Below are positions 30,318 to 32,303 of a stretch of 32,554 nucleotides of DNA, in pieces. Under the pieces are notes generated by a model. The model made no database searches and was not told the DNA's origin. It was given only the letters and a program-made list of their open reading frames with translations. Within the stretch, counting starts at the first letter, position 1; each line of letters begins with the position of its first letter. Location: NCBI GenBank assembly GCA_004321915.1, contig SCQE01000084.1:1-32554 (forward strand), in the 5' to 3' direction. A program made the translations under genes and the position numbers. This DNA comes from Nitrospirota bacterium. GTDB lineage: Bacteria > Nitrospirota > Thermodesulfovibrionia > Thermodesulfovibrionales > Dissulfurispiraceae.

Positions 30318-32303
30318 ATGATTATTATCCATAAAATAGACGATTTTCTTTTTAACCTCTTCCCGACCGCTAAGCAAGCAAGCAAGCAAGCAAGCAAGCA
30401 AGGAGATAAAGACCTCTCCCTCTTAGAAGAAGAAATTGCCGCTTATTATACCTTTGGCCCCTTCAAGCCTAAAGTTGAGATCGAAAATGATTTTGTAAAG
30501 ATTGAAATCGATACCTCTTCAATCGCCAGTCAAAAGCCTGAGTTTGATTCAGCTGTAAAATGTTGCGAATCAGGCAAGTTCAAAAAAGCCAAACCAGTCC
30601 TTGAAAAACTCATAAAGAAAAATCCTACTGTTTCGGAATATCACCGGATTCTCGGTCAGATTTACTCTGAGGAAGGACATCAGGAACAAGCCATAAATTG
30701 CCTGATTGACGCCCTGCGCTGGGACCCGAAGAACACTCACGCACTAACAATGATGGGCAATATCTTCGCTCGCAGCAAGAATGATATTTCAACCGCGATG
30801 TCCTATTATCAGCAATCCCTTGTTGTAAAACCTGACGACCACATTGCCATGAACAATATCGGTGCAAACTTCATGCAGCTTGGGCGAGTGCAGGAAGCCG
30901 GGGAATATTTTGAGAAGGCATATGCTGTAAACAACAGTTATCCGAATACCATATATGCATTGGGGATGATAAAAGACCTCAACGGTGACCATCAAGCCGC
31001 CTTTGATTTTGCGATACAGGCCTTGAAGAAATGCTCACCATCAAATCCTGTTTACAAGAATGCAGTTGAGCTTGCACATCAGTCAGCTCTCAAGGTGATA
31101 GCGAAGACTGATGCCATGGAGATGTTTAACCAGTATTCACAAAAACTTGCGGGCGAATCGGGTAAAAATATTGACATTGTATTTGACGATACTGCTCCTA
31201 CCCCTGCAAAGCTTGAGATGGCAGAGAATTACAATCGGGACAAACATATTATCAGGTTCAAGAAAGACAGACAGGCAATCACCCATCTCATGATGCATGA
31301 GCTTGTACATCTCGACTTTGCGGTCCGGTGCCGTAAGCTGAATGCAAATTACCTTTTCATTGCAACCAAGGAGCAAAAGGAACTGTTCATAAGAAATAAT
31401 GAGCCGATCATACAGAGGCTTAAGAGGGAAGGATACGACGATAAATCTGTCGCCGGATTCATAAACGCCCTTTTCAACGGCATTAACAGCCAGATTTACA
31501 ATACGCCGATTGACCTTTTTATCGAGGATTTCCTGTACAAGACTTATCCTGCCTTGAGGCCGTTTCAGTTTATTTCGCTTCTGTCATTACTTAAAGAATA
31601 TATCGAAGTGGCAACGAGCAAGAAGATTGCCGAACATACGCCGGTGCAAATAAGAAGCGCCAACATTATCCAGAGCCTTGTCCATAATCTCCAGTTCAAG
31701 GATCTGTTCGGCTGTGACATGGCCTATAACTTTAAGGCTTCCTCACAGCAAATAAAGATTGCAAAAGAATTCTACTCTGACTACCTGAAATATCAGAAGG
31801 CTGATAAGGCGCTGGAAGCCCATAACCTGATTTTGAAATGGGCCAAAGAACTCAGATTGGATAATTATTTCAGCCTTGTTGAAGAAAATGAATACAGGTC
31901 GAGAGCAGGGACTGACAATATTATTGAAGGGCCTGACCACTTCATAAAAACTGAACCGGCCCCTGCGCAAAAATCAGAAGTGGAATTTTCAGGAGAACCG
32001 GCAGGACAGGCAGCCGTCACAATGTATTGCCTTAGCGCGTTGCAATATTTTGAGGACAAGAAGTTGGAAGAAATAAAGAGTGTTGGCTTTGAGATAGCGA
32101 TGTTGGGCCAACAGGGAATTGACCCGGCAAACAGCGAGAAAAAGTACCGTCTGCAAAGCATACCAAACAAAGAATTCACAGGCCTCCAACTTCTCGCCTA
32201 CATGTACGCGGCTTTTCAGGTCATAGACCCATTTCTTGATACGGGGTTGAAATTTAAAAAGGAGTATGAGGCGGCAAAGGAGATGTTTGAAAAAGGCAAA
32301 TAG
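30318..32303 (+). CDS. TPR-HExxH protein with repeat-encoded N-terminus
   Basis: About 661 residues. The N-terminus (MIIIHKIDDFLFNLFPT) is followed by AKQASKQASKQ, which is encoded by an AAGC tetranucleotide tract. Residues about 75-265 hold four or five TPR units (YHRILGQIYSEEGHQEQAINCLIDALRWDP, etc.). Then comes THLMMHELVHLDF with a HExxH zinc-peptidase-like motif near residue 327. The C-terminal half is helical and unrecognised. No signal peptide is clear. TTG 30309 is an alternative start. The long open frame after the tract shows that the present repeat number is in the ON phase. Substrate and pathway are unknown. Confidence 0.75.
   Translation: MIIIHKIDDFLFNLFPTAKQASKQASKQGDKDLSLLEEEIAAYYTFGPFKPKVEIENDFVKIEIDTSSIASQKPEFDSAVKCCESGKFKKAKPVLEKLIKKNPTVSEYHRILGQIYSEEGHQEQAINCLIDALRWDPKNTHALTMMGNIFARSKNDISTAMSYYQQSLVVKPDDHIAMNNIGANFMQLGRVQEAGEYFEKAYAVNNSYPNTIYALGMIKDLNGDHQAAFDFAIQALKKCSPSNPVYKNAVELAHQSALKVIAKTDAMEMFNQYSQKLAGESGKNIDIVFDDTAPTPAKLEMAENYNRDKHIIRFKKDRQAITHLMMHELVHLDFAVRCRKLNANYLFIATKEQKELFIRNNEPIIQRLKREGYDDKSVAGFINALFNGINSQIYNTPIDLFIEDFLYKTYPALRPFQFISLLSLLKEYIEVATSKKIAEHTPVQIRSANIIQSLVHNLQFKDLFGCDMAYNFKASSQQIKIAKEFYSDYLKYQKADKALEAHNLILKWAKELRLDNYFSLVEENEYRSRAGTDNIIEGPDHFIKTEPAPAQKSEVEFSGEPAGQAAVTMYCLSALQYFEDKKLEEIKSVGFEIAMLGQQGIDPANSEKKYRLQSIPNKEFTGLQLLAYMYAAFQVIDPFLDTGLKFKKEYEAAKEMFEKGK
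30372..30402 (+). repeat. AAGC tetranucleotide repeat tract (7.75 units)
   Basis: Seven perfect AAGC units plus AAG run without interruption inside the first 30 codons. A change of one unit shifts the frame. The next in-frame Met lies over 100 codons downstream. Confidence 0.95.

Follow-up and report, generated by a model that had tools for sequence, protein, structure and literature searches.

Contingency loci are a classic and already known class of mechanism. The account of Haemophilus influenzae in PMC2651432 describes tetranucleotide contingency loci, among them igtC, lic3A, and the hgp genes, and notes, as a precedent, a locus that has another unit in one strain. Phasevarions, as described in PMC2667262 and the review PMC11868660, depend on phase-variable type III methyltransferases. 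On the protein side, BepA is described as an M48 metalloprotease with an HExxH protease domain and tetratricopeptide repeats (TPRs) (PMC7950410).

Here we analyze a gene at the end of a 32,554-nucleotide stretch of DNA (referred to as the window), which joins TPRs to an HExxH domain and carries a tetranucleotide tract near its 5' end. We propose, with a probability of about 0.68, that the gene is switched by slipped-strand mispairing and encodes a metallopeptidase-like accessory of anti-phage modules. In the literature searched, we found neither the family, nor its link to defense, nor its occurrence in uncultivated Nitrospirota. Searches on tetranucleotide-repeat phase variation in Nitrospirae, on DUF2075 with MazG and defense, and on Schlafen, helicase, TPR, and MazG in phage defense returned nothing. 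On phase variation by simple sequence repeats in anti-phage defense, a single review came up. Judged by titles, the family was also absent from the ten papers returned on TPR, metalloprotease, HExxH, and phage defense. One BREX survey did not mention zincin, metallopeptidase, TPR, MazG, or phase variation.

The AAGC tract and the encoded protein

The features of the locus, all on the plus strand, are as follows.

30280..30288, +, extended -10-like box upstream of the start (TGGTATAAT), found by eye and absent from the consensus-scan list
30318..32303, +, TPR-HExxH gene, 661 codons from ATG 30318 to the stop, ON in the assembly
30372..30402, +, AAGC tract of 31 nt, codons 19-29 (KQASKQASKQG), the proposed slippage switch
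30513..31109, +, TPR superhelix, residues 66-264 (Pfam; AF2 model and structure comparison)
31122..31901, +, HExxH domain, residues 269-528, metallopeptidase-like, without Pfam, NCBIfam, or PDB sequence match
31296..31310, +, HELVH (HExxH) motif, residues 327-331, with H327, E328, and H331 invariant in 10/10 aligned copies
31524..31526, +, Glu403 of DLFIE, candidate third zinc ligand, invariant in 10/10 aligned copies
32001..32297, +, C-terminal helical region, residues 562-660, following a disordered linker at 531-563 (AF2)
32266..32379, +, MazG-like gene remnant that overlaps the TPR-HExxH gene at its 3' end and is broken after EQFHN; intact in genome G042
32435..32554, +, end of a repeated (IS-like) element that closes the contig, with 10 other genome matches

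The TPR-HExxH gene is the last plus-strand gene of the window. Tandem Repeats Finder (TRF) reports the AAGC repeat at 30372-30402 with about 7.75 units (7.8 by TRF) and 100% match, and codons 19-29 consist of this perfect 31-nt tract plus two bases. The two alternative frames across the tract terminate at 30407 and 30424, and the first later in-frame ATG, GTG, or TTG is codon 145, so a one-unit change closes the frame with no nearby downstream start to rescue it. The original prediction had placed an uninterrupted 31-base tract within the first 30 codons, with truncation upon a one-unit change and no Met for more than 100 codons, and these statements were borne out. A chance origin of the tract was ruled out: 400 kb of sequence from this genome held no period-4 tract longer than 13 nt, and 200 dinucleotide shuffles of the window none longer than 15 nt, versus 31 nt here, and AAGCx4 occurs at a single site, the tract of this gene, across the 3.63-Mb assembly. 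The tract is thus long, uninterrupted, built from a non-triplet unit, inside an ORF, and above background, as contingency loci are.

An alternative start, TTG 30309, lies upstream of ATG 30318 and is also possible, but the Nitrospirota relatives begin at MIIIHKIDD. At the position corresponding to the -10-like box, the string TGTGGTATAAT was found by eye in G042 and in one copy of G393 (contig C19). Elsewhere in the same genome, the longest repeats within the 400-kb sample are heptanucleotide tracts related to AGTCAGC (L105 16193-16225, 33 nt, and 19537-19563, 27 nt); a further one lies in the window at 15035-15061, inside the start of an ORF.

The TPRs were recognized by Pfam TPR_8 with 51.4 bits (cutoff, 25.7). 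Residues 66-264 were modeled with a mean pLDDT of 85 (AF2), and their structural matches were the TPR domains of OGT, MamA, and PilF. Because fold searches with the whole protein gave TPR proteins only, the HExxH domain was modeled separately, with a mean pLDDT of 92. The window copy of this domain matched 0 families in Pfam and 0 in NCBIfam, including the M48 peptidase profiles; it had no sequence match in PDB, and its model had no Foldseek match to PDB at an E value of ≤0.001. For the HExxH part, these results agree with the prediction of a protein that joins TPRs to an HExxH motif and belongs to no recognized family. The BepA model matched residues 61-216 only, which is the TPR part of the window protein. 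PADLOC 2.0.0 has no model for the protein, with only PDC-M16B reaching it, through the TPR region (E = 0.019). UvrD-helicase and other weak Pfam matches of some aligned members (best E = 0.002) were taken as chance.

In all 10 aligned copies, HExxH is followed by a downstream conserved Glu, the combination expected of gluzincins and minigluzincins, and Glu403 is a candidate for binding zinc. Weak VIA matches to zinc proteases were obtained for selecase (4qhj; Z of 4.0, 91 residues, 3.8 Å), abylysin (4jiu; Z of 3.7, 89 residues, 4.3 Å), and a DPC-repair protease (6mdw; Z of 4.1, 97 residues, 3.8 Å), all within the noise range of the tool; the alignments cover model residues 1 to about 160, with the HExxH helix included. 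A gluzincin-like fold is only a lead from modeling, because VIA warns that such Z values may be noise. In six relatives (L042, L043, L044, L045, L046, and L053), the disordered linker contains in-frame inserts (such as PSPLEGEG or NPPLPKRGKGGF) that resemble dispersed palindromic repeats; they fall in the region matching window residues 531-563, and the window copy does not have them.

Relatives and gene neighborhoods

With a profile of the HExxH domain, family members were detected in 12 of the 230 genomes searched from the class and in 7 of 176 from the order. Four of the 12 (G273, G291, G224, and G452) hold scraps only, which are C-terminal stretches of 26-75 residues (G452:C38, L080; G273:C12, L050; G291:C28, L051; G224:C31, L052); in L080, a deletion spans residues 23 (the tract site) through 597, and a partial MazG-like gene lies after the scrap. 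No homologue was found in G001, the only same-genus genome examined, and in the genome of the window itself a search for further copies gave generic TPR matches only. A second assembly of the window's species with a different repeat number was not found among the genomes searched.

A scan of genome contigs gave 10 loci, of which six are from Nitrospirae, two from Phaeodactylibacter, and one each from Ferruginibacter and a Leptospiraceae bacterium. Copies were also found on plasmids of Hymenobacter and Marivirga, on a 22-kb element named Microcystis phage Mwe-JY31 that carries Rep3- and TraG-like genes, and at the end of one viral contig. The distribution is therefore patchy and partly plasmid-borne. 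The copies in Marivirga and P. xiamenensis are broken, and the one in Leptospiraceae has an in-frame stop. The phylogenetic tree was built from 14 loci, leaving out Marivirga, P. xiamenensis, the viral contig, and the scraps, and its deep branches are weak. Genome G393 holds two copies (contigs C139 and C19) with 82% identity, one of which lies near the G042 copy on the tree. A 359-amino-acid TPR protein on Thauera plasmid pTha01 (L112 5239-6318) matches the C-terminal part of the family only and is without HExxH.

In the window, the repeated element begins 131 nt past the stop of the TPR-HExxH gene and extends to the contig end. No defense module is visible between the gene and the contig end, the MazG-like neighbor being a remnant. 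In G042, the MazG-like neighbor has a Pfam MazG-like match and is followed by a protein that matches the REase_II model; the C19 copy of G393 has the same two downstream genes (with the REase_II match made for the G042 copy), and G244 has them in reversed order. A MazG-like gene is followed by an SLFN-g3 helicase on the Microcystis element and, with an S24 peptidase, on the second contig of G380. Downstream of the Hymenobacter canadensis plasmid copy, there are a MazG-like gene, a gene for a 245-amino-acid protein, and then McrB- and McrC-like proteins. The downstream gene is ResIII in G429 and likewise in Ferruginibacter, where it overlaps, and type III Mod followed by Res in G372 and Phaeodactylibacter L060. 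The Leptospiraceae copy is immediately preceded by an SLFN-g3 helicase, with a T5orf172 (GIY-YIG-type) protein encoded two genes after it. In PADLOC, these neighbors matched models for type III and type II restriction-modification, and the helicases matched AbiO/Nhi/PDC-S41.

By our own count, 11 of 17 loci have, at most a few genes away, a gene for a defense nuclease, methyltransferase, or helicase. At a twelfth, on the Marivirga plasmid, annotated endonucleases and a DEAD/DEAH helicase follow 6-7 kb on. Only a MazG-like gene or its remnant is present at G393:C139, G337, and the window, an AMP-binding gene lies next to the gene in P. xiamenensis, and on the viral contig, which breaks off within the gene, a serine recombinase is encoded upstream.

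We propose a role in anti-phage modules because the gene mostly adjoins a MazG-like pyrophosphohydrolase together with a restriction or helicase module; this neighborhood is the evidence that points to defense. Of the host, phage, or surface selection suggested originally, the neighboring genes favor phage. The same neighborhoods might arise if the gene were a real contingency locus with a role unrelated to phage defense, for example in surface or stress biology, and had defense genes nearby because mobile islands carry both. No defense phenotype is known, and the neighbors vary between loci, as islands predict. However, the gene directly adjoins or overlaps defense genes in unrelated phyla (L059, L060, L085, and L086), and we regard a role outside defense as unlikely, though deserving of serious consideration. 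A defense-associated switch remains our preferred reading.

Several further island features were seen. Upstream of the gene on the viral contig (L063 486-3064), the large serine recombinase lies beside a partial ComM/Mg-chelatase-like gene, and a full Mg-chelatase-family gene is found near the G244 copy (L045 10839-12377), which hints at comM as an island site. In the window itself, three consecutive genes at 18251-21174 resemble a D12-class adenine methyltransferase, a ParB-like protein, and a possible nuclease, names given by reading the translations; they are perhaps another restriction or phage-like island.

Reading frames and selection across copies

We compared reading frames at 17 loci, nine from Nitrospirota and eight from other bacteria or elements. 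G393:C139 is without its 5' end, which leaves eight assessable Nitrospirota copies, and each allele represents one assembly consensus. A long tract (19-46 nt) is present in all eight, at one of two sites that both coincide with domain junctions in the AF2 model.

Window: AAGC, 31 nt, N-terminal site (about codons 18-21), in frame (ON)
G042: AAGG, 19 nt, N-terminal site (about codons 18-21), in frame (ON)
G393:C19: 9-mer, 30 nt, N-terminal site (about codons 18-21), in frame (ON)
G429: CACAG, 21 nt, N-terminal site (about codons 18-21), N terminus out of frame with the TPRs
G380: GGAC, 23 nt, N-terminal site (about codons 18-21), N terminus out of frame with the TPRs
G244: AGAC, 46 nt, linker (about codon 253), TPRs and HExxH shifted by 1
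G337: AGAC, 35 nt, linker (about codon 253), TPRs and HExxH shifted by 2
G372: AGAC, 46 nt, linker (about codon 253), TPRs and HExxH shifted by 1

There are thus six units, five of them (AAGC, AAGG, GGAC, CACAG, and the 9-mer) after the N-terminal segment and AGAC in the linker between TPRs and HExxH. Three of the eight copies are ON and five are out of frame, with the shift located at the tract in each. In three of the five (G244, G337, and G429), the gene is otherwise intact and the tract is the sole lesion seen; G372 has an additional C-terminal deletion with a frameshift, and in G380 the gene is divided between two contigs, with the break inside it. AGACx4 in G244, G337, and G372 was found at this locus only and was absent from five other genomes tested. 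In G393:C19, the 9-mer would leave the frame unshifted, and this copy may be a frozen ON allele.

The relatives thus differ in repeat and unit, and ON and OFF alleles both occur in otherwise intact genes, which gives comparative support to the phase variation first proposed from the window alone. We infer, with good support, that the gene is phase variable and the locus a contingency locus, since the tract is non-triplet, above background, at a structurally harmless site, replaced by other repeats in relatives, and present in in-frame as well as out-of-frame copies. Outside Nitrospirota, seven of eight loci have no long tract, so the switch is not constant across the family; at the eighth, Ferruginibacter, there is G9 only, at about codon 20 and in frame, which is only suggestive as a tract.

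Selection was estimated as dN/dS by the simple NG86 method, with pairs of saturated dS, including many of the wider comparisons, set aside. Among G244, G337, and G372, the pairs gave 0.05-0.07 for the TPR half and 0.08-0.14 for the HExxH half; G380 versus G429 gave 0.13 and 0.06, respectively. Over these four within-clade OFF-OFF pairs, the ranges are 0.05-0.13 (TPR half) and 0.06-0.14 (HExxH half). The low values in both halves mean that, in the out-of-frame copies, purifying selection has acted before and after the tract through most of their past, a result unexpected under a simple pseudogene view.

Decay of the gene, with neutral microsatellites as tracts and ordinary pseudogenes as out-of-frame copies, would fit the several copies that are scraps or otherwise broken and the damage beyond the tract in G372 and G380. 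It does not fit the three copies with the tract as the only lesion seen, the dN/dS of about 0.05-0.14 in both halves, the absence of comparable long tracts from 400 kb of the same genome, or the replacement of units at the same two junctions, and we consider it improbable. Errors of sequencing or assembly in the repeat, by which true in-frame alleles would appear shifted, have a smaller chance still. The publicly named Nitrospirota copies are all metagenome assemblies, and repeat length is hard to assemble; however, tracts of 19-46 nt fit within a usual short read, tracts with different units are impossible as products of error, and the non-triplet tracts would stand if all the OFF calls proved mistaken. 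Programmed ribosomal frameshifting at the tract, which would join the conserved frames so that "OFF" copies are translated, is very improbable, because one constant offset would be required and the linker offsets vary (1, 2, and 1), three copies need no shift, the units differ, and none of them is a known slippery heptamer.

Proposed switch and comparison with known systems

Under phase-variable switching of a defense accessory, slipped-strand mispairing in the non-triplet repeat would alter the unit number during replication, so that the gene could be read through in ON cells but not in OFF cells. Its product would join a TPR protein to a metallopeptidase-like HExxH domain, in which the TPRs might bind a partner or trigger and the HExxH domain might cleave a target. 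Most likely, it would serve as an accessory or regulatory protease, or as an effector, of mobile anti-phage modules. Activity in only part of the population would hedge phage attack against cost or self-harm. An OFF state at the N-terminal tract would leave a peptide of 27-28 residues (G380 and G429), and at the linker tract (G244, G337, and G372) a TPR-only protein is expected. As the AGAC clade would still yield the TPR half when OFF, the switch there would join or separate sensor and enzyme.

The systems beside the family include type III restriction-modification, McrBC, Schlafen-type helicases, and restriction enzymes. A broader reading, which we hold tentatively and at somewhat less than even odds, is that an unnamed family of phase-variable protease modules plugs into many DNA defense systems, usually in the company of a MazG-like enzyme. 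By switching the protease at random or, in one clade, by randomly joining and unjoining the TPR sensor and the protease, these modules would arm the neighboring system in part of the population, and the ability to switch would itself be selected in environmental bacteria. Selection on switching is proposed because the repeat has been replaced repeatedly at two junctions, and the six units at two sites point to such selection, tied to defense genes. The gene family is thus a testable candidate for a new defense component, and its copies form a natural series for how contingency repeats arise and get replaced.

Among described proteins, the minigluzincins (selecase, abylysin, and SprT/Wss1-type DNA-protein cross-link proteases) align weakly with the HExxH part, at Z values in the noise range; they differ in having no sequence match to it, and here a long all-helical region follows the HExxH part. 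In BepA, the protease comes first and the TPRs second, whereas here the TPRs come first and the HExxH domain has no M48 profile match. With phasevarions, the locus shares a switch linked to type III restriction-modification, as the copies at L049, L060, L053, and L059 precede mod-res or res. However, the tract lies in the TPR-HExxH gene, in which Pfam and NCBIfam found no methyltransferase, and most other copies adjoin other modules; a type III mod phasevarion was ruled out because the tract is outside any methyltransferase gene. The H. influenzae loci, in the account of PMC2651432, share the uninterrupted tetranucleotide tract in an ORF, the loss of frame by one unit, and a repeat-encoded hydrophilic peptide that often lies close to the N terminus. 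In contrast to them, the locus described here belongs to another gene family, in uncultivated Nitrospirota, with two alternative tract sites and with four tetranucleotide units, a pentamer, and a 9-mer across species.
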